This document shows, piece after piece, positions 31,190-50,707 of a DNA stretch of 64,000 nucleotides (position 1 is the first letter of the stretch; each line of letters starts with the position of its first letter). Below the pieces are notes generated by a model. It did no database searches. It saw only the letters and a program-made list of their open reading frames with translations, and was not told where the DNA came from. The stretch is from Acidithiobacillus caldus ATCC 51756. GTDB lineage: Bacteria; Pseudomonadota; Gammaproteobacteria; Acidithiobacillales; Acidithiobacillaceae. Position numbers and translations under genes: made by a program. The DNA is taken from contig NZ_CP005986.1 of NCBI RefSeq assembly GCF_000175575.2, forward strand, positions 1,932,615 through 1,996,614. Reading direction: 5' to 3'.

Positions 31190-32541
31190 GGTGTATGAGC
31201 ATTTGCTAACACGATTCAGGCGGCGTCCTGTTGAGGATCCAGCCGGGTTTCGTTGGCAGGCATCCCATCGACAAATGTCACCCCGGCAAAGAGCTCGCGC
31301 AGTCTTTCCGGATGCTGAATCCCGCGCCAGTGTCTCTCTGCCTGCTGGATGAGCTTGTAGCTCAGGCCAAGGAAAGTGGCTCGAGAGACACAGTTTTTAG
31401 TGCGGCTGCTGCGTTGCCGTACGGTGGCGAAGGTCGATTCGATGGCGTTGCTGCTGCGGATATGCCGCCAGTGCTCTGCCGGGAAGTCGAAGAAGGTCAG
31501 CAGCACGTCCCGGTCCTTCTCGAGCTTTGCGACCGCTCTGGGATATTTGGCCTGGTAGTCCCGCACGAAGGCTTGCCAGGCTTTCTCCGCAGCTTCACGG
31601 GTGTCGGCCATCCAGATCGCCTGCAGGGCGGCCTTGGCTTTCCCCTGAAGGCGCTTCGGTAGCTCGTTGAGGATGTTGGCCGTCTTGTGCACCCAACAGC
31701 TCTGATGACGGGTTTGTGGGTAAATCTCGTCCAGGGCGGCCCAGAAACCCATCGCCCCATCTCCTATGGCCAGTAGTGGCGCCTCCTGCAGCCCGCGGTC
31801 GCGCAAGTCCCGCAGGATCTCTAGCCAGGAGGCTTTGGACTCCCGTAAACCGTCGGTGACCGCCACGACCTCCTTCTTGCCCTCGGCCGTCACGCCAATA
31901 ATGACCAAGAGACACATCCGGGGATCGTCCTCCGCCCGCAGCTGGGTATAGACCCCGTCGGCCCACCAATAGGCGTAGCGTTTTCCCTGTAGAGACCGGC
32001 GCTGCCATTGGGCATGCTCTTGCGCCCATTCGACTTTCAAGCGTCCCAGCACGGCCGGAGAAAGCCCCTTGGCCTCCTCGCCCAGGAGAACAGACAGCGC
32101 CTCGTGCATCCGTCCCGACGATACCCCGTGCAGGTACAACCAGGGGAGCGCTGCGGCCACGGTCCGCGACTTGCGCACGTAGGGCGGTACCAGGGAAGAA
32201 CGGAAGACCACGCCCGAACCGGAGCGGTCTCGCACCTTGGGGACCTGTACAGGCACGGGGCCGACCGCTGTCAGGATCTCCCGCTCCGGCAGATATCCAT
32301 TCCGCACGACGGCCCGGCGACCATCGACCATGCGTACCGCGGCATACTCCTCCAGCAGCACCTGCACCTCGCCCTCGATGGCCTGTTGGATCAGCTGGCG
32401 CGCGGACCGCCGCAATAAGCCCTCGATGTTCAGGCCCAACTCTCCCATTCCTCCGTCGAAACCAGTACTCTCTTGCATGGCGCACTCCTCATTCGTTGCG
32501 AATCGGATCCAGAAACCCTTTTCTAGCAACAGTGCGCCACC
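31190..32541. mobile_element. IS256-family insertion sequence
   Basis: About 1.35 kb containing one transposase gene. The ends are imperfect inverted repeats: GGTGTATGAGCATTTGCTA at the left (31190-31208) and, read inward from the right, GGTGGCGCACTGTTGCTA (32541-32524). No matching 8-9 bp direct repeat is visible in the flanks (GTCAAGATT left, CTCCTCAAG right), so this copy may have rearranged its surroundings. It separates the flagellar cluster from the lambda-like element. Exact ends are approximate. Confidence 0.8.
31216..32478 (-). CDS. IS256-family (Mutator-type) transposase
   Basis: 420 residues from the ATG at 32478, which has GAGGAG upstream; a reading from 32529 would add 17 residues from the IS end. 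DDE residues are recognisable: Asp in YWWADGVYTQ, Asp in LLAIGDGAMGFWAALDEI, Glu in SSNAIESTFATVRQR. The CWVHKTANILNELPK motif is the family's conserved segment. No frameshift or stop is seen, so it could be active. Confidence 0.95.
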   Translation of the reverse strand: MQESTGFDGGMGELGLNIEGLLRRSARQLIQQAIEGEVQVLLEEYAAVRMVDGRRAVVRNGYLPEREILTAVGPVPVQVPKVRDRSGSGVVFRSSLVPPYVRKSRTVAAALPWLYLHGVSSGRMHEALSVLLGEEAKGLSPAVLGRLKVEWAQEHAQWQRRSLQGKRYAYWWADGVYTQLRAEDDPRMCLLVIIGVTAEGKKEVVAVTDGLRESKASWLEILRDLRDRGLQEAPLLAIGDGAMGFWAALDEIYPQTRHQSCWVHKTANILNELPKRLQGKAKAALQAIWMADTREAAEKAWQAFVRDYQAKYPRAVAKLEKDRDVLLTFFDFPAEHWRHIRSSNAIESTFATVRQRSSRTKNCVSRATFLGLSYKLIQQAERHWRGIQHPERLRELFAGVTFVDGMPANETRLDPQQDAA

Positions 32542-35912: not shown

Positions 35913-37150
35913 TATGCTACCCCAAGGCGCAGTTCGATCTGTCCGGGTGCTACCCGCGGCGGGAATCCGCGACGGAAGGTCCGCTGCGGTAGCGTCTGGA
36001 CGCTCGCTCTGACCCTTTCTGTAGGTTTCGGCTCTGGCTCTTCGTCGAAGGACGGCGGGGCCTCCTCCATACCTGGCTTGCGCGGCGGCGTCCGCCCCTT
36101 GTACAGGTCCTTGGGGTCGATGAGTTCCCCGAGATCCTTCACCTCGGAATCCTCTTTTTTGCCAGCAGCCACGCAGACCGCTTCCCCGAATCTGTCCACT
36201 TCGTGGTTTACCACTTCGTGGGCTACCACTTCGTGGTTGACCGTCTCGCCGGTGTCGGACTCTGGGACCGCGTCCTGCTCGCGCTCAGCGAGGATATCCA
36301 GAGCGGCCAGAATCTTGGTGATGAGTGCCGGACTGTTTTCCGGGTCCAGGAGGGTTTCCGCCATACGTTCCAACAGCACCCGGGAAACGGCACAGCCCGA
36401 CCTGGCCCTCGACATCAGCCGTTTGGCAATATCCGCAAGCGAAGCGCTGCTCACGGCGCGAATCTGCCGCAGTATCTCTGCCGCGCGTTCCGACAGCGCG
36501 GTTTCCCCAATCTCGGCGCTACGCACATAGGTAATGGTCATGTCCACCCAGGCCGACAGCGATACCGGGGTACTGCGCAGATCCTGCCAATCCACCTCGT
36601 CCGATGCGGGTTCCTCCATGGCCTCGACCACCATCTCGGTGCTGTGCGTCAAGGCATAGTAAGGGTCGATATCGTCCTCACGGATATCGGCACAGGCGTC
36701 CATATCCCCATCGACATGGACCTGCGATACCGCTTTGGGTTGGGTATCCGGGCTGCCATACACGGATTGGGTGAGGTAATCCCGAGAATCGAAACCACAC
36801 TCCGTCATCCGTTTGGAGAAGCTCAGAAAATCGCGGTGCTTGAGCAGATACGCGCGAGCGATGTTGTTCAGATACCGGCTGAAAGACGGCATTTTTTCCG
36901 CGTCGTATTGCGTGCAGCAGAAGTCCACCAGTCCGGTAATGCAGTCGGTGACCATGTCCTCATCGAAGAACCCTGCTTTTCTCGCAATATTCCAGACGAT
37001 GCGCGAAGCGGTCTGAAAAATCTCCGCATGAAAAAGCGCCAGTTCCGCCTCTTCGCGCGGTGTACGATCCGGCTTGCGATAGATGGCACAGAAACGTAGG
37101 ACTTTCTCGCTGTCCAGTTGGGTGATTTTGTTTTTTTTACGATCTTGCAC
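35912..37150 (-). CDS. Protein with sigma-70-region-2-like N-terminus; candidate late regulator
   Basis: 412 residues from a GTG with a perfect AAGGAGG site. Residues about 40-120 read like a sigma region 2: AEIFQTASRIVWNIARKAGF, then DEDMVTDCITGLVDFCCTQYD and MPSFSRYLNNIARAYLLKHRD, comparable to the DLIQEgxxGLxxAxxkFDp...F.sYA pattern. No region 4 HTH is obvious. The middle is helical; residues about 305-318 carry three VNHEV/VAHEV repeats from 15-bp DNA repeats; the end is Pro/Arg-rich. It lies after O, P and RusA, where lambda has Q. Function is inferred, not shown. Confidence 0.5.
   Translation of the reverse strand: MQDRKKNKITQLDSEKVLRFCAIYRKPDRTPREEAELALFHAEIFQTASRIVWNIARKAGFFDEDMVTDCITGLVDFCCTQYDAEKMPSFSRYLNNIARAYLLKHRDFLSFSKRMTECGFDSRDYLTQSVYGSPDTQPKAVSQVHVDGDMDACADIREDDIDPYYALTHSTEMVVEAMEEPASDEVDWQDLRSTPVSLSAWVDMTITYVRSAEIGETALSERAAEILRQIRAVSSASLADIAKRLMSRARSGCAVSRVLLERMAETLLDPENSPALITKILAALDILAEREQDAVPESDTGETVNHEVVAHEVVNHEVDRFGEAVCVAAGKKEDSEVKDLGELIDPKDLYKGRTPPRKPGMEEAPPSFDEEPEPKPTERVRASVQTLPQRTFRRGFPPRVAPGQIELRLGVA
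36196..36236. repeat. Three 15-bp direct repeats of an 11-bp hyphenated palindrome
   Basis: CCACTTCGTGG occurs at 36196, 36211 and 36226, with 4-bp spacers (TTTA, GCTA). Each copy is itself an inverted repeat (CCAC-TTC-GTGG). The array lies in the sigma-like gene and encodes VNHEV-type repeats. It may be a protein-binding array or only a coding microsatellite. Confidence 0.8.
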
Positions 37151-37179: not shown

Positions 37180-37596
37180 TCACGTGATGCCCCCATCGAA
37201 TGGGGTCCATTCGACGAAAACGGCGCCTTCCGGAACGGGCTGACCACGCTCCAGCACCATGCGCACGATTTGCTTATCGTCCTCGAAGGCCACGCCCTGC
37301 AGGGCATCGACTGCAGCTTTTTCGGCGTTGGCCAGATCGATGCATCGCAATTCCAGGTGCCAGTAATCGCCCCAGATCTGCCGGCGCTTCTCGGCGTCTT
37401 TCGGGAGCACGGGGTGCAGCACGATGCGAACGGCAACCGGCCCCGTGAGCGGGGGCCGATCGCGCATCGCCATCTTGGCAACCCACGCAGCGCGGCGTTT
37501 GTAGTCCGCGACCTTCGCGGGCAGGTAGGTCTTCCCGCCGGCGGTGCGCCATATCCGGTTGGTAGACGGCGGGTACGGGAGGGTTATGGACGGCAC
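37180..37596 (-). CDS. rusA: RusA-family Holliday junction resolvase
   Basis: 138 residues. N-terminus ITLPYPPSTNRIWRTAGGKTYL matches the RusA PPSxNxxWR start. The acidic active-site segment reads CIDLANAEKAAVDALQGVAFEDDKQIVRM, against the usual DLDNxxKaxxDALnGvxxxDDxqI; the second Asp of DLDN is Ala here, but the others (Asp of DAL, the DD pair) remain. Resolves branched recombination intermediates in lambdoid phages, where it sits in the nin region. Overlaps the preceding small gene by 13 bp. Confidence 0.88.
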   Translation of the reverse strand: MPSITLPYPPSTNRIWRTAGGKTYLPAKVADYKRRAAWVAKMAMRDRPPLTGPVAVRIVLHPVLPKDAEKRRQIWGDYWHLELRCIDLANAEKAAVDALQGVAFEDDKQIVRMVLERGQPVPEGAVFVEWTPFDGGIT

Positions 37597-37904
37597 GGTT
37601 CCCCTCCCCGATTCTGCCTCTGCCCCGAAGTCGATGGTGAGCTAGGGTTGCCACTGGACATGCCCATTGCCGGGCCGTAAATGCCCATAGAATCGATTTT
37701 CTCTGGTGTGGTGCTAGTGGGGTAGCACAGAGGCTCATAAAACGATTCTGGAGCATCTATGCCCCGTTCCCGACGCAGGCGCTGCTGGTCCCAGCGGTTC
37801 CAGGCATCTTTGCCGTACTGGGCCAGGCAGGATTCCCAAAGCCGCTCGGTCTCCAGGGACTCCAGGACCCCGCGGGGCAGGCCAGCGTCGAGGTACAGGA
37901 GCAT
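37584..37904 (-). CDS. Hypothetical protein
   Basis: 106 residues. Its ATG shares one base with the stop of the P-like gene (TAATG at 37904) and its end overlaps rusA by 13 bp, so it fits a coupled operon. First 60 residues look folded (LPRGVLESLETERLWESCLA, DAWNRWDQQRLRRERGI); the rest is Ser/Gly/Pro-rich. No family recognised. Confidence 0.55.
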   Translation of the reverse strand: MLLYLDAGLPRGVLESLETERLWESCLAQYGKDAWNRWDQQRLRRERGIDAPESFYEPLCYPTSTTPEKIDSMGIYGPAMGMSSGNPSSPSTSGQRQNRGGEPCRP

Positions 37905-38734
37905 TACTCAGAGTTCCCAGCCGCAACAGCCTGGGTATCCGATGCCCCCATCGTCTCCGCCAGGCTCTCGGCCTGGGTAACGATCTGGCGCTTGCGGTCC
38001 TGCATCGCCTGGCGCCGTTGCTCGCGCAGAGCGTCTTTGGCCGCCATCTGCGCCTTTTCCTCCGCATCCACCTTGGCTAGGGTTTCGCGCATCAGGTCGG
38101 CCAACCGCTTGGCATTGGCCGACGGATGCTCGACGACGTTGCCAGTAATCAATCCAACGATCGCCCTGGCATCCTCCTTCATGCCCTGGGAATTTTCAGC
38201 CAGCAGGCGATTGGCACGATCGGCAGGCAAGTATCCTTGCGCTTTGGCTTGCTGAATCGCGTTGATACGCCTTTGGCGATCGAATCCGAGCGAAACCGTG
38301 TATTCGGGAACCCGGCGATCCTCGATGGCGGCTTCCACCAGACGTTGGTAGGCCTTGATGAATGCCGCTCTTGCTCCGAATTCATCGCCCCGTTCCAGAG
38401 CGATGCGCGCTTCGCCAAAAGCAGTGGCAGCTTCGTTGGTCCAGACGACCGTCTCATCTTCATCGGCGGCCTTGAGTGCGTGCACCCAGGCTTCGTCTGG
38501 AGACCACCAAAGGCTCCGGTATCGGTCAAGGATGACCGTGTACAGATCGGCAGGCTTGGGTGCGTACTTCCCGGTTTTCAGGTACTGGACTACCGATGCC
38601 TCGATTGCCTCGAAGGGAAACTCATTGAGCACCACCCACCAGATATCGAAATCCGTTGCATCCAGTTCCAACCGGTAGGGCTTGCACAAAGTGCGTATCA
38701 GATCGTTGAAACGCTCACGGTCGTTTGCCTGCAT
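37904..38734 (-). CDS. P-like replication protein (probable helicase loader)
   Basis: 276 residues, starting one base after the O-like gene stop. The N-terminal part resembles phage P/helicase-loader N-termini: DFDIWWVVLNEFPFEAIEASVVQYL followed by KYAPKPADLYTVI (a domain that picks up W...L...f..i..A...y......r.P.p.dl). The C-terminal part is a long charged helix (EEKAQMAAKDALREQRRQAMQDRKRQ). In lambda-like elements P brings DnaB helicase to O bound at the origin. The call rests on that pattern and on the position next to the O-like gene. Confidence 0.55.
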   Translation of the reverse strand: MQANDRERFNDLIRTLCKPYRLELDATDFDIWWVVLNEFPFEAIEASVVQYLKTGKYAPKPADLYTVILDRYRSLWWSPDEAWVHALKAADEDETVVWTNEAATAFGEARIALERGDEFGARAAFIKAYQRLVEAAIEDRRVPEYTVSLGFDRQRRINAIQQAKAQGYLPADRANRLLAENSQGMKEDARAIVGLITGNVVEHPSANAKRLADLMRETLAKVDAEEKAQMAAKDALREQRRQAMQDRKRQIVTQAESLAETMGASDTQAVAAGNSE

Positions 38735-38735
38735 G

Positions 38736-39716
38736 TCACTTCTCCCCGACTGCTCTGTTCAGAACGACGCCATCGATGGGTTCCTTACCCATCCACCGGC
38801 TCAAGGTGTTCGAGATACCGTTCTCGGTCTTGTTTTCGGAATGGTTCATTGCCAGGAACCGCTCAAACTTTTCCGAATCCCGGAAGATGAGCGTGATGTC
38901 GTTATATTTCAGCCCGCGGTCGTTCTGTCCCATATGCCACTTGGATCGCGCGCATCCATCGATAGCAGCAATGCAGGAATCCAGATCGTAGGTCTTCAGC
39001 CCCCATTCGATGCGGGTCTTACGCTTGTTGTCCAACTTGGCCTTTGGGCAGTTCATGGTTTTCTGCCAATGGACGAAAACCATGCGGACCTGTTCCGCAA
39101 CAGGGAGCGGCTGAGCCGAAGGCGAAGCGAAACTTGACAGATGTTTGTTACCAAGAGATCCATGATTATTACTAACAGGATCTATATTACCTATAGGTAG
39201 TAATATTGAATATTGATTATTGATATCTGCCGGGTTTTTCGATTTTTTGCTTGCCGGGTTCTTGCCGTGTTTCTTGGCGCTCGTCTCGTTACTCATTGAA
39301 TTATCTGGGTTTTCATCGAATTTGCTCTGTTCGGGATTGCCTTGCCGGGTTCTTGCCGGGTTCTTGCCGGGTTTATTTTGGACAGAGAAATCCGTAGGAG
39401 CCAATGACAGTTTAAAAACAATGGCTTCTCCACGTTTTTTGGATCCGATGTCCTCGACAAGCCCTTGCCGCTTTAGCCACTCCATGGCCCGACGTACCTT
39501 CCCTAATGAAGGGGTGCCGGTCTCTTCGAACCCTTGATGCTCCTGTACGTAAAGCATGGTGCGAAGCGTCATCCAGGAAATTCTTTGGGAGGCTCCAACA
39601 ATCCCCGTTTTAAAGTCCATGAATTGCTTCAGGCAAAGATAGAGCCGAAAGACGATATGTGGCATACCCTCCAATGCCTGGAGTTCTTCGCCGGAAAGAT
39701 AAATATGCGCATTCAT
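38736..39716 (-). CDS. O-like replication initiator with internal iterons
   Basis: 326 residues. N-terminal winged-helix region (GMPHIVFRLYLCLKQFMDF, GASQRISWMTLRTMLYVQEH, SLGKVRRAMEWLKRQGLVED), a central Asn/Pro/Lys-rich linker (about 105-190), and a C-terminal phage O/DnaT-like domain (EWGLKTYDLDSCIAAIDGCARSKWHMGQNDRGLKYNDITLIFRDSEKFERFL, seen as W-x-Lxx.y..di..Ai.gc..S...G). The linker DNA holds the 11-bp repeats described as the origin. Its ATG overlaps the preceding small ORF (ATGA). Confidence 0.75.
   Translation of the reverse strand: MNAHIYLSGEELQALEGMPHIVFRLYLCLKQFMDFKTGIVGASQRISWMTLRTMLYVQEHQGFEETGTPSLGKVRRAMEWLKRQGLVEDIGSKKRGEAIVFKLSLAPTDFSVQNKPGKNPARTRQGNPEQSKFDENPDNSMSNETSAKKHGKNPASKKSKNPADINNQYSILLPIGNIDPVSNNHGSLGNKHLSSFASPSAQPLPVAEQVRMVFVHWQKTMNCPKAKLDNKRKTRIEWGLKTYDLDSCIAAIDGCARSKWHMGQNDRGLKYNDITLIFRDSEKFERFLAMNHSENKTENGISNTLSRWMGKEPIDGVVLNRAVGEK
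39169..39374. other. Putative replication origin (iterons plus AT-rich tract) inside the O-like gene
   Basis: TTGCCGGGTTC occurs head-to-tail at 39342, 39353 and 39364 (last copy ending TTT) and again at 39251; degenerate copies lie at 39228 (CTGCCGGGTTT) and 39262 (TTGCCGTGTTT). Next to them is an AT-rich tract (about 39169-39226) with the palindrome ACCTATAGGT. Eleven is not a multiple of three, so successive repeats are read in different frames: the repetition is kept at DNA level. This is the lambda ori plan of iterons in gene O beside an AT-rich unwinding region. Confidence 0.7.
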
Positions 39717-39901
39717 ATTCTATACCCCTTGGAGAGGAATTCCTGTCTCTTCTTTTCGAGCCATTCCTCTACGGAGCGCGCATGGTCTCGTCGGACGATG
39801 TCCAGATTCCTTTCCAGAGATTCGCGCACGGCACGTTCCGCATCCTCTCTTGTAGAGCGATGCTGGACTTCGAGCTTCTTGCGCCAATCGGTGGTTTTCA
39901 C
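39713..39901 (-). CDS. Small coiled-coil hypothetical protein
   Basis: 62 residues from a GTG at 39901 that overlaps the ParB-methyltransferase stop (GTGA), and ending in an ATGA overlap with the O-like gene. The sequence is a single charged helix (TTDWRKKLEVQHRSTRED, AERAVRESLERNLDIVRRDH, SVEEWLEKKRQEF). A longer frame to 40117 would be antisense-like N-terminal extension overlapping the upstream gene. Function unknown. Confidence 0.6.
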   Translation of the reverse strand: MKTTDWRKKLEVQHRSTREDAERAVRESLERNLDIVRRDHARSVEEWLEKKRQEFLSKGYRI

Positions 39902-41064
39902 GCAACGTCCTCCAAGCGTGAAATTCCCCGCTGAACGCCGTACATCACGGCCCCAATGGAAAGGAAAACCGTCTTGAACCGGTCTACGTGAGGCCCGAAA
40001 TAGACCAGCATTTGCCCCTGGGACGGGAGACCGCTTTTCCCTTCTGGCCGGCGAAACTTTAAGCGGGACGCGGGAAAGCAGGCCGCGGATCCGTGTGAGA
40101 GCAGCATCTGTCCCCATTGGGTTTCCGTACCGCTGTTCACCAGCACGATGGCTTCCGTGACGCTGCCATCGGCATATCGCTGGACCAGCGCCTCACAGAA
40201 GTCGAGAATCTGGGGGTAGCTGTAGGGTGGATTGAGCCAGACCTTTCCTCGCCATGCCTGCTGCAGACCATCCTGCTCTTTGGCGAAAAATCGTTTCGCC
40301 TGCACGGCTTCGTTGGCGGCTGCACAGGAGGCGGGATCGAGGTCGATGTCTCCCAAGACCGCGCGCGCCGCATCGAGGATGTAATCGGGCGTGTACCACT
40401 CATCGCTCCACGCGGGGTCTGCGACGGCACGCAAGGCATCGGTTGGCTTCTCGCCGGCCTGGATGGCCTCGACGATTTCCACCTGATCTTGCTCATCCAG
40501 GTCCGCGATCCGAGCGGCGGTGTGGATGCTGACCAACCCGTCGTCCAAAATTTCCACGAGGTCAGGGATTCCTTGTTCGACGGCGTTCCTGGCGGACTCG
40601 TAGGTTTTGCCACAACCAAAGCCCGACCGTTCGGCAACGATATCGCGAGTTTCCCCAACCTCTTTCAAGCCGGAAATTTTTCCGTTTTGAAAATCCTTGC
40701 TCCGACGGTCTCCGCCGTGACGACCGGCCAACTGCTCCTCGATGGCCTTCGCGATCGCCACGCGCTCAGAGACGCTGAAATCCTTACGAATGGAGTTTTC
40801 TTCAAACTCTCCCTCGATAAGACTATCGATACGGAGAATCTTGATGGGTATGGTCTCCCACCCCAGAAGACGGCATGCAGCGAGGCGGCGCTGACCGAAG
40901 ATCAGACGATACCGCTCATCGACCCCGATGGGTTGGAGTAGCCCGAATTTCTGGATCGACTGAGCAAGAGCCCCAATATCACCCAGGTCCTGACGGAAGC
41001 GCTGGCCAACGGATATGTCCGTAATTGTTGCTTGGGCAAGTTCTGGCGCAGACAGGGTAGTCAT
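39898..41064 (-). CDS. ParB-nuclease-domain / phage N6-adenine methyltransferase fusion
   Basis: 388 residues from MTTLSAPELA, with GAGGAG upstream. N-terminal ParB/Srx-like domain: ISVGQRFRQDLGDIGALAQSIQKFGLLQPIGV, LIFGQRRLAACRLLGWETIPI, and ENSIRKDFSVSERVAIAKAIEEQ. C-terminal (from about 215) phage-type N6-adenine methyltransferase: WYTPDYILDAARAVLGDIDLDPASCAAAN, KVWLNPPYS (NPPY catalytic motif) and QMLVYFG. Acts on the element's own DNA, perhaps marking it at the origin beside it. A second, unrelated adenine methylase lies at 34992-35912. Confidence 0.85.
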   Translation of the reverse strand: MTTLSAPELAQATITDISVGQRFRQDLGDIGALAQSIQKFGLLQPIGVDERYRLIFGQRRLAACRLLGWETIPIKILRIDSLIEGEFEENSIRKDFSVSERVAIAKAIEEQLAGRHGGDRRSKDFQNGKISGLKEVGETRDIVAERSGFGCGKTYESARNAVEQGIPDLVEILDDGLVSIHTAARIADLDEQDQVEIVEAIQAGEKPTDALRAVADPAWSDEWYTPDYILDAARAVLGDIDLDPASCAAANEAVQAKRFFAKEQDGLQQAWRGKVWLNPPYSYPQILDFCEALVQRYADGSVTEAIVLVNSGTETQWGQMLLSHGSAACFPASRLKFRRPEGKSGLPSQGQMLVYFGPHVDRFKTVFLSIGAVMYGVQRGISRLEDVA

Positions 41065-41216
41065 AACCAACTCCTCACAGGGCACCGAAGACCGAAAGCA
41101 CCTGGGTCACCACTACCGCTTTCCCATGCGATTGCGCTATATTTGCCACTCCCAAAGAGACTATGCCTGGCAAACGAGTTCCAAATCGTCCTTAACACTT
41201 TAACAGGAGCCTGAGA

Positions 41217-42038: not shown

Positions 42039-42570
42039 AATAGACTCCTGCCTTTTCCGCAAAGAACGCTCCTTCCTTTCTCCTGAAATTCTCTTTTCCC
42101 TCATCTTGATAAGGGGAAGATTCGAATATCCGGATTTTCTCCATGGGGACAGGAAAATACACCCAGCCCTTCTGGTCGCCTTCTTCGTCATTGCAGCAAC
42201 CGGAGTGTTCTGTCAGAAATGGGATGGGTCCATCTGGCCTTTTTTTCTCGACTCTTATTCTTCTTCCGCGTTTATCGTTTTCATAATCGTAAGGCAAAGC
42301 CCAATAGTCGTAGACATGTACGTATCGTAGTGGCTCGTTCAGGTACTCATCGATGGGATACCCGGCAGCGCGCAGACGACGCTCAAAGGCTTCTTGAGCC
42401 TTACTGATGATGGAGGTGTTCCCAGGATATTCCAGCCACAGCCGCACAACCGGCAGGACTCTCTGCAAAATAGCATCGGGCTGGAGCCCTTGCCGCCTGG
42501 CTTCCATTATGGCCTCGTCCAGATTCACGGGCAGGGGCTTGAGCAAGTAGGAGAGATAGGGTCGGCTCAC
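41767..42570 (-). CDS. Hypothetical protein of the PR-like operon
   Basis: 267 residues. Its ATG overlaps the cII-like stop (ATGA). N-terminus helical (NLDEAIMEARRQGLQPDAIL, VLPVVRLWLEYP), middle aromatic and charged (YVHVYDYWALPYDYENDK), then CCNDEEGDQKGWVYFPVP. No family recognised. Its last 272 bp overlap the convergent GNAT-like gene. Confidence 0.6.
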   Translation of the reverse strand: MSRPYLSYLLKPLPVNLDEAIMEARRQGLQPDAILQRVLPVVRLWLEYPGNTSIISKAQEAFERRLRAAGYPIDEYLNEPLRYVHVYDYWALPYDYENDKRGRRIRVEKKRPDGPIPFLTEHSGCCNDEEGDQKGWVYFPVPMEKIRIFESSPYQDEGKENFRRKEGAFFAEKAGVYFTELGRYPGHSAPESTYLRHWKRFGLSAEEILLNLGYLLEHRHRSVQDGFWFFPRDCNLEFPVRILRRKPLLGSCDNVADRIASGVYANG

Positions 42571-42854
42571 AGACAGACTCCTTCCTCCATGGCCGCTCGC
42601 GCCAATATCCTGAGCGCCCTGAGGTTTTCTGCCTTGATGGTGGTCTTCTCACCATCGCCAAGGTACTCGGGGTGAATATCGAGATAGCTGAATAGATCGC
42701 AGATCTGCTCAAACTTGAGGCCACCATCCCCGGCCACGAATCGGGATAGCGCCGACTCGTGTACGCCGATAGCCTCCGCTGCTTTGCGCTGCCCTTTCTG
42801 GGCGAGTGCCCGCAGGATGAGGGACTGCATTTTCTGGCTGGGAGAGGGTTCCAT
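42567..42854 (-). CDS. CII-like transcription activator
   Basis: 95 residues from the ATG at 42854 with AAGGAG upstream (a second ATG at 42872 is possible). HTH region: LAQKGQRKAAEAIGVHESALSRFVAGDGGLKFEQICDLFSYLDI, which resembles CII (...EKTAEAVGVDKSQISRWK...). Position after cro matches lambda cII. CII in lambda turns on repressor and integrase transcription; whether this one does is an inference. Confidence 0.7.
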   Translation of the reverse strand: MEPSPSQKMQSLILRALAQKGQRKAAEAIGVHESALSRFVAGDGGLKFEQICDLFSYLDIHPEYLGDGEKTTIKAENLRALRILARAAMEEGVCL

Positions 42855-43102
42855 CAGCGAATCTCCTTGCAAGTTCCCACAAATTTTGCAGGCTGCATTT
42901 CATTTCCCTTGCGGCGACTGGCGGGCACACTGTGTCCATCAACAAAAGTGGAGACGGAGGCCACCCATGCACCAAAAGACAACACGCCAAACCTCACCTC
43001 GGGCCGCGGCTCTTCATGGGTATAGCAACCGCCTCCAGAGATACCGTCTCGAAGCTGGCCGAGCAGCCGAAGGATCGGGAGAAGTTGGGCCTCGCGTGTC
43101 AT
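42854..43102 (-). CDS. Hypothetical protein between cro and cII
   Basis: 82 residues. Overlaps the cro-like stop by ATGA (43099-43102) and shares one base with the cII-like start (TGATG at 42854), so it is tightly coupled on both sides. No motif recognised; includes GCYTHEEPRPEVRFGVLSFGAW. Confidence 0.5.
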   Translation of the reverse strand: MTREAQLLPILRLLGQLRDGISGGGCYTHEEPRPEVRFGVLSFGAWVASVSTFVDGHSVPASRRKGNEMQPAKFVGTCKEIR

Positions 43103-43344
43103 GCTGCCCCCCGTCGATCGTCCTGGGGGCGGGAGATGGGGCCGAAGATGTCGGGACGAAGGTCCTCTCTGGTTATAGCTCTTTGGGTAGCGACTTCTAT
43201 GCGGATAGATGCTTTTGTACCTGGAGCAGATTTACCCGCGAACCACTTATGGACCGCTGGTTGTGAAACGCCAGCCATCCTCGCCAGAGCCCTTTGGGAT
43301 CCAGCAATACGCAAAGCTGCGAGCAAAGCAGAGTTCGGTTTCAT
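43099..43344 (-). CDS. Cro-like / YdaS-type repressor
   Basis: 81 residues. HTH: ALRIAGSQRALARMAGVSQPAVHKWFAGK. This is the YdaS/Cro layout of small lambdoid repressors. First gene after PR; predicted transcript start coincides with the ATG (see promoter entry), and no Shine-Dalgarno precedes it, so it is probably translated leaderless. It faces away from the CI-like gene across the operators. Confidence 0.8.
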   Translation of the reverse strand: MKPNSALLAALRIAGSQRALARMAGVSQPAVHKWFAGKSAPGTKASIRIEVATQRAITREDLRPDIFGPISRPQDDRRGAA

Positions 43345-43427: not shown

Positions 43428-44108
43428 ATGGAGACGTTCTCAGATCGCGTTAGAAAAGCACGAGAGCACGCCGGGCTGTCTCAGGCTCAGCTCGCCGAGA
43501 GGGTGGGCATGTCCCAACCGGGAATTCAAAAATTGGAGCGCGGAGGCTCGTCGTCAAAGTTTACTGCCCAGATCGCCAGTGTTTGTGGCGTGAGTGGCGA
43601 GTGGTTGGCTACCGGTAAAGGCCAAATGCTTGGGGACATGCGACCTGGCCAGTACGACGTCAACGTTCAACCCATAGATGAACCTATCCGGACGGTCCCT
43701 CTCATAAGCTCTGTAGCTGCTGGTTTGATGACGAATGTTATGGACCCTTACGCCTTGGGAGCTTATGAGAAGAAGGTTCCCGTGCTTGTCGAAGTGTCCA
43801 AGTTTGCCTTTGCTCTTAGGGTGTTAGGCAACTCGATGATGCCAGACTTCTCCCCTGGCGACATTATCATCATCGACCCGGACGTGACGCCCCATCCCGG
43901 GGATTTTGTTGTAGCAAAAAATGACGAAGAGGAAGCAACTTTCAAGAAGTACCGGCCACGAGGGCGCAACGAGAAGGGCGAAGAGTATTTTGAGCTTGTG
44001 CCATTAAATCCGGACTATCCAATACTTAGATCAGATTTAGAGAACATCTATATCATTGGCACCGTGGTTCAACATAACAGGATGATGAAAAATAACAACA
44101 AGCTATGA
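43428..44108 (+). CDS. cI: CI-like repressor with S24 autoprotease domain
   Basis: 226 residues. HTH_3 domain 5-60 (VRKAREHAGLSQAQLAERVGMSQPGIQKLERG). Linker with an Ala98-Gly99 cleavage site (SSVAAGLM). S24 peptidase domain from 120: catalytic Ser136 in LGNSMMPDFSPGD and Lys in EEATFKKY (173/174). The protein should bind the 14-bp operators on both sides and be inactivated through RecA-assisted self-cleavage in the SOS response, as in lambda. Leader is only a few nucleotides if PRM is right. Confidence 0.95.
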   Translation: METFSDRVRKAREHAGLSQAQLAERVGMSQPGIQKLERGGSSSKFTAQIASVCGVSGEWLATGKGQMLGDMRPGQYDVNVQPIDEPIRTVPLISSVAAGLMTNVMDPYALGAYEKKVPVLVEVSKFAFALRVLGNSMMPDFSPGDIIIIDPDVTPHPGDFVVAKNDEEEATFKKYRPRGRNEKGEEYFELVPLNPDYPILRSDLENIYIIGTVVQHNRMMKNNNKL

Positions 44109-46792: not shown

Positions 46793-47668
46793 ATGAACGC
46801 TGTAGTCCAATCCAAGAAATCCCAGTCCATTACCACGGTTCCCGTCCTGGAAATGTCCGAACAGGAACTGATCTCTGTTCTGGAAAACAGCATCTATCCC
46901 GGCGCATCTCGGGAATCCATCAAGATGGCCATTTCCTACTGCGCTGCAGCCAAGCTGGATCCGTTGCAAAAGCCCGTGCATATCGTCCCCATGTGGGACA
47001 CTAAAGCCAAGAGAATGCGGGACGTGATCATGCCTGGTATCGGGCTATACCGTACTCAGGCGGCCCGTTCCGGAGAATATGCGGGGGTCAGTGAGCCGGA
47101 ATTCGGTGAGGACGTGACCGAAAACATTGGTGGTGTGACCGTCACGTATCCCAAGTGGTGCAAGGCCACGGTCAAGCGGCGTCTACCCAGTGGGGAGATC
47201 GTCGAGTTTTCCGCCAAGGAATTCTGGAAGGAAAACTATGCGGTAAAGGGCGGTCAGGAAAAAAGCATCGCGCCTAACGCCATGTGGGCGAAACGCCCCT
47301 ATGGGCAACTGGCCAAGTGCGCTGAGGCCCAGGCCTTGCGGAAAGCCTTCCCGGAACTGGGGGCACAGCCTACTGCAGAGGAAATGCAGGGGAGCACCAT
47401 CGAGACCTCTGAAGTCATCGACGGCCAGACCGGGGAGATTATCCAGGTCCAGAAAAGCCCAGCCCGTCCAGCCCTTGAGCCGTATTCCCAGGAGCATTTC
47501 GAGCAGAACTTCCCCAAGTGGAAGGATCTGGTGGAAAGCGGAAAGCGTAGTGCGGAAGACATCCTCGCCATGATCCGTAGCAAGGCCACCCTCACCGAGG
47601 AACAGGAGGCGGCCATCCGCGCTCTTGGGGAAACGGCGAACGATTTTGCCGAGATCGCTGAGGGATAA
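46793..47668 (+). CDS. bet: Single-strand annealing recombinase Bet (RecT/Red-beta family)
   Basis: 291 residues with GGAG upstream. Conserved segments: LISVLENSIYPGASRESIKMAISYCAAAKLDPLQKPVHIVPMW, VIMPGIGLYRTQAARSGEYAG, and PYGQLAKCAEAQALRKAFPEL (read as motif patches). These are the phage Bet/RecT-family blocks. Anneals complementary strands made by the exonuclease encoded next, 3 bp downstream. Confidence 0.92.
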   Translation: MNAVVQSKKSQSITTVPVLEMSEQELISVLENSIYPGASRESIKMAISYCAAAKLDPLQKPVHIVPMWDTKAKRMRDVIMPGIGLYRTQAARSGEYAGVSEPEFGEDVTENIGGVTVTYPKWCKATVKRRLPSGEIVEFSAKEFWKENYAVKGGQEKSIAPNAMWAKRPYGQLAKCAEAQALRKAFPELGAQPTAEEMQGSTIETSEVIDGQTGEIIQVQKSPARPALEPYSQEHFEQNFPKWKDLVESGKRSAEDILAMIRSKATLTEEQEAAIRALGETANDFAEIAEG

Positions 47669-47671
47669 TCC

Positions 47672-49189
47672 ATGCTCCGCTACCATCGCGTCGAACAGGG
47701 TACTCCAGAGTGGCTGTCTCTGCGCCTTCGGCACTTCACCGGAAGCGAAGCGCCGGCCATGATGGGCGTGAGCCCCTATCTGGGGCGAAATGAACTCTTG
47801 CGCCAGAAGGCTACGGGTATGGTCCCGGAAGTCGATGCCACGACCCAGGTGATTTTCGACGCGGGGCATGCTGCGGAAGCCGCCATTCGTCCAGCGGCGG
47901 AGCGGGTGATCGGGGAAGAGCTTTTCCCGGGCACCTGCAGTCGCGATGTCGATGGCTTGCCACTGCTGGCCAGCCTCGATGGCCTCACCATGGACGGGTC
48001 CATTGTCTGGGAAAACAAGCTCAAGAACGAAGAGACCATTGCCCACATCGCCGAACATGGAGAGCCTCCCCTGCATCACGTCTGGCAGCTGGAGCACCAG
48101 CTGCTGGTGACCGGAGCAGAAAAGGCGCTTTTCACCTGCGGCACAGACGGTGAAGACTTTGTTCGCTGCTGGTATGAGAGTCGCCCAGAACGCCGCGAGG
48201 CAATCCTGGCCGGCTGGAAGCGGTTTGCGGAGGACTTGGCAAACTACACGCTGCGCCCAGACGAATACGAGTTCATTGGAGTGGCGCCGGATCGTTTGCC
48301 GGCACTGCACGTTGCGGTATCTGGTCGTATTCTCGCCAGCAATATTGCCGAGTGGCGCGACCGGACTCTGGAGATTCTGGCCGGCATTCCTCGCGACCTG
48401 CGCACCGATCAGGATTTCGCGAATGCTGAGGAGACTATCCGGTGGGCCAAGGAAGCCCTGGATCGCATAGCGGTGGTCAAGGATGCGGTACTCGCACAAA
48501 TGCCGGACGTAGAACAGATGTTTCGTTCACTCGACGATATCGGCGAGGCATTGGGCCGTACCGTGAAGGATCTGGACGGGCTCGTGAAGGTGCGCAAGGA
48601 CAATATCCGGCTCGAGATGGTGCAAAAAGCCGCCGAGTCGGTCCGCGCCCACTACGACGCCCTGGCACTGGAACTGGGGGCCTATGCTCCGACGATGCCG
48701 TCGGCTCTGCTGGCCGAACTTGGAGCGAGCATCAAAGGCACCCGTACGGCAAAGGCGGCGGCAGCGAAGCTGGATAGCGCCGTTGCCCAGGCCAAAATCG
48801 CTGCGGATCGGGACGCAGATCGGCTGCGCACGGCTCGGCGTCTCTTTGCCGATGCCGCTGCCCGGGTTGGAGTCGATCTCTGGCCGGACGGGCCAGCCTT
48901 GGCCCAGACTATGGACGAGGACGCTCTGCTCGGGGTCATTGCCCGGCGGGTGAATGCCCACCGCTTGCAAGGTTCCCGTCCCACGTCCAAGGCATCCAAA
49001 ACCTTGTCGCTCGAAGCGATCTGTGCGCGCATCTCGCCGCTGGGCATTACCAAGGCAGGGCTCGCGCAACTCGGTTTTGCCCCGCTCCCGGACGGAGGGT
49101 ATCTCGAGGCGGATTTCCCGAAAATCTGTGCCGCACTTGTGGCCACCTTGCAGTCTGCGGCCAAGAGCGAGATGGCCGATGCCGCTTGA
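47672..49189 (+). CDS. YqaJ-family recombination exonuclease (lambda Exo-like)
   Basis: 505 residues, longer than lambda Exo (226). N-terminal YqaJ domain: QGTPEWLSLRLRHFTGSEAPAMMGVSPY, IFDAGHAAEAAIRPAAE, LLASLDGLTMDGSIVWENKLK (the Asp and E-x-K of the PD-(D/E)xK site), then HHVWQLEHQLLVTGAE. Residues about 220-505 are an added, mainly helical region, common in YqaJ proteins of proteobacterial elements. Resects dsDNA 5' ends for Bet. Confidence 0.9.
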   Translation: MLRYHRVEQGTPEWLSLRLRHFTGSEAPAMMGVSPYLGRNELLRQKATGMVPEVDATTQVIFDAGHAAEAAIRPAAERVIGEELFPGTCSRDVDGLPLLASLDGLTMDGSIVWENKLKNEETIAHIAEHGEPPLHHVWQLEHQLLVTGAEKALFTCGTDGEDFVRCWYESRPERREAILAGWKRFAEDLANYTLRPDEYEFIGVAPDRLPALHVAVSGRILASNIAEWRDRTLEILAGIPRDLRTDQDFANAEETIRWAKEALDRIAVVKDAVLAQMPDVEQMFRSLDDIGEALGRTVKDLDGLVKVRKDNIRLEMVQKAAESVRAHYDALALELGAYAPTMPSALLAELGASIKGTRTAKAAAAKLDSAVAQAKIAADRDADRLRTARRLFADAAARVGVDLWPDGPALAQTMDEDALLGVIARRVNAHRLQGSRPTSKASKTLSLEAICARISPLGITKAGLAQLGFAPLPDGGYLEADFPKICAALVATLQSAAKSEMADAA

Positions 49190-49392: not shown

Positions 49393-49713
49393 ATGACGAG
49401 GACACTAGACCTGGAAGAAGCGGCCCAGTTTCTCCATCTGCATCCGGACACGGTCCAGCGCCGGGCAAGGGCGGGGGAGATACCCGCGGCGAAACCGGGG
49501 AAACTGTGGGTCTTCCTCGAAGACGACCTTGTCGCTTACCTCAAAAGCCTACAGAATCGACCCCGGCAGACGGGCAAAGGAGAGGATCACCAATGCTCTA
49601 TAAGCGTGGTAAAACATGGTGGGTTGACTTCGTCGATGCAAGCGGCCAGAGAGTTAGGCGCTCGGCTGGCACGACGGACAAAGCGGCCGCGCAGGAACTG
49701 CACGACCAGCTGA
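49393..49713 (+). CDS. Excisionase-like HTH protein
   Basis: 106 residues from the ATG at 49393 with GAGGAG upstream. MerR-type winged HTH: TLDLEEAAQFLHLHPDTVQRRARAGEIPAAKPGKLWVFLEDDLVAYL, the helix_turn_helix_17/excisionase family. Adjacent to and overlapping int by 121 bp in another frame, so it is a probable recombination directionality factor; its last about 40 residues come from the overlap. Confidence 0.75.
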   Translation: MTRTLDLEEAAQFLHLHPDTVQRRARAGEIPAAKPGKLWVFLEDDLVAYLKSLQNRPRQTGKGEDHQCSISVVKHGGLTSSMQAARELGARLARRTKRPRRNCTTS

Positions 49714-50618
49714 GGGCCGAGGCGTGGCGACAGTCGAAACTCGGAGAAGCCCCGGCGCGCACCTGGGACGAGGCTGCGTTACGGTGGCTTGAGGAAAAAA
49801 CGCACAAGGCAACCTTAGAGAAAGATGAGCAGCAGCTGGAGTGGTTGCATCCCTACCTATCCGGGAAAAAGCTGAAAGACATCTCTTGGGAGACGATTCG
49901 AGGCATTCTCGAAATAAAGAAGAAAGAAACGTCCGCGAGCACGGCCAATCATTACCTGGCTTTGATTCGCGGTATTCTACGGCGTGCAAACAAATGGGGA
50001 TGGCTGGAAGTTTTGCCATCCTTTGAACCGTATCCAGTAAAAAACCAGCGGTTACGCTGGTTGACCCAGGAAGAAGCGGCCAGGCTGTTGCAGGAACTTC
50101 CACCGCATTTGGCAAGCATGGCGGAATTTTCCTTGCTGACCGGGTTGCGTCAATCCAATGTGACCGGATTGGAGTGGTCACAGGTGGACATGCAGCGCCG
50201 TTGTGCCTGGATCCATCCGGACCAGGCCAAAGCCAGAAAGCCCATACCCGTGAGCCTCAACGAACAGGCCGTGCAAGTGTTGCTGCGCCAGATTGGGAAG
50301 CATCCCCGGTACGTTTTCACGTACAAGGGCCGACCCGTAACGCAAGTCACAACCAAGGCTTGGCGGAACGCGCTCCAGCGGGCTGGTATCGAGGACTTCA
50401 CGTGGCATGGCTTACGACATACGTGGGCAAGCTGGCACGTCCAGGCAGGCACCCCGCTGCTCGTCCTGCAGCAGATGGGTGGCTGGGCATCGCTCGACAT
50501 GGTGCAGCGGTACGCGCATTTGTCCGCCGACCATGTGGCGCAGTACGCAGGGAATGTGTCGGTTCATGGTACAAAAAAGGCACAGTCCCCATTGAGAGTT
50601 GTGCCGAGTGTCGTGTAA
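49593..50618 (+). CDS. int: Tyrosine-family integrase
   Basis: 341 residues from the ATG at 49593 with AAAGGAGAGG upstream. Arm-type N-terminus (KRGKTWWVDFVDASGQRVRRSAG), core-binding domain, catalytic domain with Arg186 (TGLRQSN), His272-x-x-Arg275-His276 (HGLRHTW), Trp in QQMGGWASL and nucleophile Tyr307 (MVQRYAHL). Ends 13 bp from the CCA end of tRNA-Asn, which is the probable attachment target. Confidence 0.95.
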   Translation: MLYKRGKTWWVDFVDASGQRVRRSAGTTDKAAAQELHDQLRAEAWRQSKLGEAPARTWDEAALRWLEEKTHKATLEKDEQQLEWLHPYLSGKKLKDISWETIRGILEIKKKETSASTANHYLALIRGILRRANKWGWLEVLPSFEPYPVKNQRLRWLTQEEAARLLQELPPHLASMAEFSLLTGLRQSNVTGLEWSQVDMQRRCAWIHPDQAKARKPIPVSLNEQAVQVLLRQIGKHPRYVFTYKGRPVTQVTTKAWRNALQRAGIEDFTWHGLRHTWASWHVQAGTPLLVLQQMGGWASLDMVQRYAHLSADHVAQYAGNVSVHGTKKAQSPLRVVPSVV

Positions 50619-50631
50619 GTCGTTGATAATT

Positions 50632-50707
50632 TGGCTCCCCGGGACGGGCTCGAACCGCCGACCTAGTGATTAACAGTCACCCGCTCTACCGACTGAGCTA
50701 CCGGGGA
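50632..50707 (-). tRNA. tRNA-Asn (GTT)
   Basis: Full cloverleaf on the minus strand: acceptor TCCCCGG/CCGGGGA, D arm TAGCTCAGTCGGTAGAGC, anticodon loop CTGTTAA with GTT, T arm GGTTCGAGCC, and encoded GCCA end. The integrase gene points at the 3' end. The gene appears intact after integration. Confidence 0.97.

Follow-up and report, generated by a model that had tools for sequence, protein, structure and literature searches.

The integrated conjugative element (ICE) ICEAcaTY.2 of Acidithiobacillus caldus most probably contains its replication origin inside its own initiator gene, followed by the presence of a P-like helicase loader gene, and the lvrA-lvrB pair of Legionella appears to be the same module, as judged from sequence comparison. 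It is also reasonably likely that an unnamed initiator family with a one-residue/one-base code, 11-bp intragenic iterons and conserved heptamers provides a lambda-style theta origin for the ICEs of Acidithiobacillus and Legionella, that LvrA/LvrB are not regulators but the replication module reported as missing from Legionella ICEs, and that a phage-type repressor turns on excision and replication jointly.

The initiator gene and its partner were found side by side in the window (the whole stretch of 64,000 nucleotides that was analysed):

38736..39716, minus strand: O-like initiator gene, 326 aa (PHROG matches; AlphaFold2 model)
37904..38734, minus strand: P-like helicase loader gene, 276 aa (phrog_6028, function unknown, 3.4e-51; phrog_2289, helicase loader, 1.7e-8)

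The P-like gene starts right past the O-like stop, and the preliminary description of an O-like gene directly followed by a P-like gene was borne out for both assignments by PHROG profile. The N-terminal part of the O-like protein (aa 8-122) was found to match phrog_23635/13103, families of unknown function, followed by the presence of matches to phrog_16167 (replication initiation, 6.6e-15) and phrog_18020 (O-like, 5.7e-7) in the C-terminal half (aa 204-293). The protein also matched phrog_345 (E 4.4e-4), and no Pfam family match was found up to E 0.1. The AlphaFold2 model contained a winged helix (aa 1-106), then a linker modelled as disordered (about aa 109-203) and, at lower confidence, a helical C-terminal domain; the pLDDT was 82-95 in the first nine 10-residue blocks and mostly below 50 in the linker. 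The linker is the part encoded by the origin repeats, and comparison of the repeat positions with the model domains places the putative origin between the N- and C-terminal domains.

The PDB sequence search with the N-domain profile gave a best E of 0.019, to an unrelated ribosomal protein, and no usable match. The fold search returned generic winged helices, including plasmid RepA and viral initiators, with none singled out. Among these, the RepA_N initiators (staphylococcal RepA, 4pql and 4pt7), which have a winged-helix N-domain, were matched at Z 8.2 and 8.0, respectively, no better than many winged helices, and no sequence match between RepA_N initiators and the O-like protein was found. 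In RepA_N plasmids, the origin is located inside the rep gene.

The O-like gene was found to contain six 11-bp repeats in two arrays and a single copy, followed by the presence of heptamers, an AT-rich tract and an inverted repeat:

39341..39373, minus strand: iteron array I, three AACCCGGCAAG copies head to tail, pitch 11
39250..39271, minus strand: iteron array II, copies 4 and 5 (AACACGGCAAG and AACCCGGCAAG), pitch 11
39226..39236, minus strand: iteron 6, AACCCGGCAGA, 24 bp past copy 5
39202..39223, minus strand: heptamer tandem TCAATAA TCAATAT TCAATAT, period 7 by Tandem Repeats Finder, directly past the last iteron
39166..39225, minus strand: AT-rich tract, 78% AT, presumed unwinding element
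39184..39206, minus strand: inverted repeat ATATTAC(9 nt)GTAATAT, which includes ACCTATAGGT

On the coding strand, the repeats of the AACCCGGCAAG type start at gene positions 343, 354 and 365 (array I), 445 and 456 (array II) and 480, with steps of 11, 11, 80, 11 and 24 bp between them. Of the copies listed in the preliminary description, TTGCCGGGTTC was confirmed as exact at 39251, 39342 and 39353 and as degenerate at 39262, whereas the copy at 39364 has one mismatch and the degenerate one given at 39228 should be at 39227. Tandem Repeats Finder reported period 11 with 3.0 copies and 100% matches at 39341-39373 and also scored 39250-39276. The self-match at lag 11 in the O-like gene was 22 nt, whereas the largest among 2000 shuffles was 14 nt (0/2000); in this null, the protein and the codon usage were held constant and the synonymous codons were permuted. 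The repeat pattern with two mismatches was barely enriched over the whole window (33 seen, 23.7 expected), and the count of mismatched repeats was therefore dropped as evidence; the signal lies in the arrangement of the repeats and not in their number. Two adjacent repeats with at most three mismatches had no other match in the genome (2.99 Mb).

The repeats could instead belong to the level of the protein, if the DNA that codes for a basic linker (KPGKNPARTRQGNP) were repetitive by chance. The linker peptide is of low complexity, and up to 6 two-mismatch copies arose by shuffling against the 7 seen. However, the pitch of 11 is out of frame, codon shuffles never gave the 22-nt match, and the peptide varies among relatives while the pitch stays constant. 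This reading is in the main refuted and has hardly any probability left. The earlier claim that the repeats fall into all three reading frames and are retained as DNA signals was upheld.

The 60 nt past the last repeat contained 78% AT against 51% for the O-like gene. ACCTATAGGT was found at 39189-39198; it is unremarkable alone and forms part of the longer inverted repeat. The AT-rich tract and palindrome described beside the repeats were both recovered. The AT excess over the gene mean peaked at +0.16 in the 30 nt past the last repeat (26 genes), and the GC-rich relatives L004 and L013 contained no clear AT-rich tract. The heptamers and the inverted repeat were first spotted by eye and tested afterwards. 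At the heptamer site, relatives were found to contain TCCGGTA TCCGGTA or TCATTAA TCACTAT TCATTAG, and the 7-bp signal past the last repeat reached z 7.3 outside the Legionella-type group (13 genes) and z 6.6 within it (14 genes). The whole-gene test at lag 7 supports the heptamer signal, with self-matches in 6/16 relatives outside this group against a null of 0.2. An exact 16-mer heptamer probe was rejected as a diagnostic marker, as it matches unrelated DNA in viral contigs too. Strong inverted repeats (stem of at least 8) past the heptamers were present in 5/27 genes (null 0.6, max 2), the stem of the window being 7. Roughly where the window has its inverted repeat, the nearest relative (L002, genome G023) contained another stem, GGGGATATAAATATCCCC.

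Matches to the O-like protein were found in 11/188 genomes searched (the own genome included), some of them in other families of the same class, and the full-length protein gave no match against viral contigs. The protein of the nearest relative is 57-61% identical to the O-like protein, and its contig contained ORFs that resemble TopB, a coupling protein of the TraG/VirD4 type, and pil genes, as judged from the ORF starts. The other relatives were Pseudomonas phages, a Marinobacter phage, a prophage-like Cupriavidus plasmid, and many Legionella loci. A diverse alignment (A1) was too variable for the pattern search and a tighter alignment was used instead.

The repeat layout was tested in 38 representatives less than 70% identical, with a self-match of at least 8 nt and 100 protein-fixed shuffles. 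Self-matches at lag 11 were found in 12/38 relatives (null 1.5, max 5 in 100 shuffles), at lag 22 in 8/38 (null 0.5, max 3), at lag 24 in 14/38 (null 4.3, max 9) and at lag 35 in 9/38 (null 1.2, max 4). When the 22 Legionella-type representatives (mostly Legionella, with some unclassified MAGs) were set aside, lag 11 was found in 8 of the 16 remaining relatives (null 0.6, max 4). In the flanking DNA, lag 11 was found in 0/35 downstream regions and 4/37 upstream regions of 900 nt; the four upstream regions with an 8-nt match possibly contain more binding sites. The usual layout was one array near gene nt 330-375 followed by a second near 420-490, and the 24-bp step before the last iteron recurs among the relatives. 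The sequence of the repeat varied with the clade: that of the window contained CCCGGCA, that of Legionella either CCCGACA or CCCGCCA, that of the P. aeruginosa phages AAGTGGGCA and that of L026 AAGTGGTGA. The pitch was 12 bp in L013 and L037. Among relatives in other families the repeat sequence and the encoded peptide vary, whereas the pitch of 11 to 12 bp and the place stay. The absence of the repeats from homologous genes had been named as an argument against an origin, and the opposite was found, as relatives retain the intragenic repeats. The relatives L015, L027, L039 and L088 carry the N-domain, and clear repeats were not found in them by the method used.

The DnaA box TTATCCACA was found in 6/38 relatives against 0.6 expected, including the Legionella-type L038, L055, L063, L068 and L085. 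It was excluded as a part of the origin because it overlaps a conserved Tyr-Pro codon pair in the relatives read and is absent in the window gene; constraint on the protein may help to explain the excess.

The strongest covariation over all columns of the N-domain was found between residue 72, in the predicted recognition helix, and the base N of CCG-N-CA. Counted by cluster, the pairs were Asp-C (9/9), Gln-A (7/8), Lys-G (3/3) and Gly-G (2/2), and the association reached z 8.3, followed by 5.2 for the next column. The base N of the Pseudomonas phages and L006 was assigned by hand alignment of their differing cores, L010 (repeats with another core, doubtful label) was left out, and the covariation was rerun with the new phage members. 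A lineage of viral contigs found afterwards (L233) obeys the Asp-C rule. On the tree built without residue 72, only four Asp pairs counted as independent, of which two lie on well-supported branches and go with C; this small number, due to shared ancestry, limits the weight of the covariation. Gln-adenine and Lys-guanine are classic contacts. The 11-bp periodicity, the conserved placement of the repeats and the covariation of residue 72 together make it very likely that the O-like protein binds the repeats in its own gene, as in an intragenic origin of the lambda type. The correspondence makes the predicted binding testable by single substitutions.

The preliminary description had named a lambda-type replication origin. 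The intragenic position, the AT-rich tract and the P-like gene next to it agree with this, as in lambda (ori/O/P) and the lambdoid Stx phages the origin likewise lies midway through the initiator gene, with several iterons followed by an AT-rich tract and P next. Lambda has four iterons and Stx phages have six, those of lambda being 19-bp inverted repeats, according to passages of PMC7466680. In contrast, the window contained 11-bp direct repeats without such a dyad, in two arrays with heptamers, on an ICE. The origin of the window is thus best described as working like lambda ori, as predicted from its layout, and membership of the lambda O family is not claimed because of the 11-bp direct iterons and the lack of a Pfam match.

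The P. aeruginosa phages D14P and BR153a were found to contain an O-like gene with 11-bp AAGTGGGCA repeats and TCCGGTA heptamers, followed by the presence of replication P and then a Holliday junction resolvase. They differ from the window in being phages with holin or terminase genes, and in Lys72 with G in the repeat. In the P. aeruginosa phages (L250, L253, L254 and others), a second overlapping frame was found open for about 418 codons across the origin.

The N-domain was present in 17/22 genomes of one Legionella genus group, with up to four copies each, so that a single Legionella cell may harbour more than one ICE origin, each with its own iterons. A T4SS marker was found in 37/68 loci (mostly Legionella) and a csrA match in 41/68. 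The gene order with csrA and the ICE T4SS is that of lvrRABC-lgi, which makes the Legionella homologue a putative LvrA by gene order. Legionella lvrA-lvrB resembles the O-like and P-like pair of the window in the N-terminal domain, the intragenic 11/24-bp repeats, the P-like partner and the location on an integrated conjugative element; lvrB overlaps the 3′ end of lvrA. Three examples of LvrB matched phrog_109, a family of P-like helicase loaders, with E 2.8e-10, 1.2e-7 and 4e-5, and one example gave a lambda P match below the Pfam cut-off. Unlike the window gene, lvrA contained a C-terminal domain of the phrog_270 type and the iteron core CCGACA or CCGCCA; the pair is followed by csrA (lvrC) and a GI-type T4SS, whereas the ICE of the window has a Trb system. 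A 2013 study, in its available passages, described these Legionella ICEs as without a replication module, with no conserved replication genes found (PMC3864950). In the open-access literature covered, mostly passages and main text only, no replication role of LvrA-LvrB and no ICEAcaTY.2 origin was found.

In the main alternative reading, the repeats would serve the O-like protein, or some other regulator, as intragenic operators or for autoregulation; the O-like protein would be a transcription regulator, and the ICE would replicate only by rolling circle via its relaxase. Replication from oriT is open to ICEs that have a T4SS and a relaxase, and the winged-helix fold is common to many regulators. 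The lvrRABC genes are described, in the passages seen, as a regulatory module reported to regulate island excision, and the Trb transfer system and relaxase encoded by ICEAcaTY.2 (passages of PMC3826726) could drive rolling-circle replication. However, the C-terminal domains match replication initiation profiles and the partner matches P-like loaders, the same gene occupies the O position before the replication P gene in Pseudomonas phages, and the repeats are followed by an AT-rich tract. These features are unexpected of an operator, and the operator reading is accordingly unlikely.

The region was found to be the phage-like end of the 183-kb ICEAcaTY.2, a conjugative element integrated at tRNA-Asn, and not a prophage:

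50629..50678, no strand: right attachment repeat, overlapping tRNA-Asn; a second, exact copy of these 50 bp, about 182 kb leftward, bounds the element
49506..50618, plus strand: tyrosine integrase of the ICE (PF00589, 1.1e-34)
46793..49189, plus strand: RecT and RecE-like recombination pair
43428..44108, plus strand: CI-type repressor with S24 peptidase domain, divergent from the operon
43099..43344, minus strand: Cro/YdaS-like regulator, presumably encoded first in the leftward operon
42567..42872, minus strand: CII-like regulator (phrog_725, 3.4e-14)
39898..41085, minus strand: fusion of ParB-N and Dam-type adenine methyltransferase, one gene directly upstream of the O-like gene
37180..37596, minus strand: RusA-type Holliday junction resolvase (PF05866, 5.8e-28)

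The interval between the attachment repeats contained a TrbI gene and a flagellar cluster. ICEAcaTY.2 was published with 183,318 bp, Asn-GTT, Int, Xis, cI, cII, Cro, Trb, ParAB and flagella (passages of PMC3826726), and of these traits the tRNA-Asn-GTT attachment, the length of about 183 kb (repeats about 182 kb apart), Int/cI/cII/Cro and Trb (a TrbI gene inside) were found here. The unit at 32.5-50.6 kb, first taken as prophage-like, is therefore one end of this ICE; the prophage reading was ruled out by the flanking flagellar genes, the distance between the attachment repeats and the fit to the published element. PF11130 was rejected as a T4SS marker for ICEAcaTY.2, as it represents the wrong T4SS family. 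The remark that a replicating integrated element would be unusual in the genus was not sustained: ICE-2 elements with cI/cII/cro are known in two A. caldus strains, as ICEAcaTY.2 and ICEAcaSM.2 (passages of PMC3826726), and the gene family is present in 17/22 genomes searched of the Legionella group. For ICEAcaTY.2, the passages of PMC3826726 name the phage-type module for the control of excision and mention no replication origin or initiator.

The origin might also be a once functional phage origin that is now an unused passenger in the ICE, given that the phage-like segment makes up just one end of an element of 183 kb and that its replication role is a prediction. Against this, the G023 relative keeps the same six repeats with the same spacing despite 57-61% protein identity, and the Legionella elements keep the layout in many species with no decay seen, which makes a passenger quite improbable.

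An origin in use would work as follows. The N-terminal winged helix of the O-like protein would bind the six 11-bp direct repeats, as the covariation suggests, and the bound protomers, one per helical turn on one DNA face, would melt the adjoining heptamer and AT-rich tract. The C-terminal domain would then recruit the downstream P-like loader, which would place the DnaB helicase of the host, and the excised circle would replicate by the theta mode. The O-like and P-like genes lie on the strand leaving the CI-Cro region, so joint induction by DNA damage is expected, and through the CI-Cro switch DNA damage would induce excision and circle replication together. DNA-damaging treatments were reported to change the proportions of the excised and integrated forms of ICEAcaTY.2 by qPCR (passages of PMC3826726).

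If true, a lambda-like theta origin would explain the upkeep of large excised islands (183 kb here), the ICE copy number would be tied to an SOS-type switch, and a function would be supplied for lvrA and lvrB, which are spread through Legionella (17/22 genomes searched). The usual view of ICEs is that any replication starts at oriT and is driven by a relaxase.

Some further features were observed in and around the element. A 15-bp tandem of CCACTTCGTGGTTTA with 3.1 copies was found at 36196-36242, within a 412-aa ORF downstream of RusA, and a transposase-like ORF (family judged by eye) was found at 31216-32529, between the flagellar cluster and an ArdC-like gene. The tRNA-Asn attachment repeat occurs three times, at 50629-50678 of the window and at G000:C1:1801072-1801121 and G000:C1:1720712-1720761, and a second element may lie in tandem with the ICE, in another interval of 80 kb on its left side.
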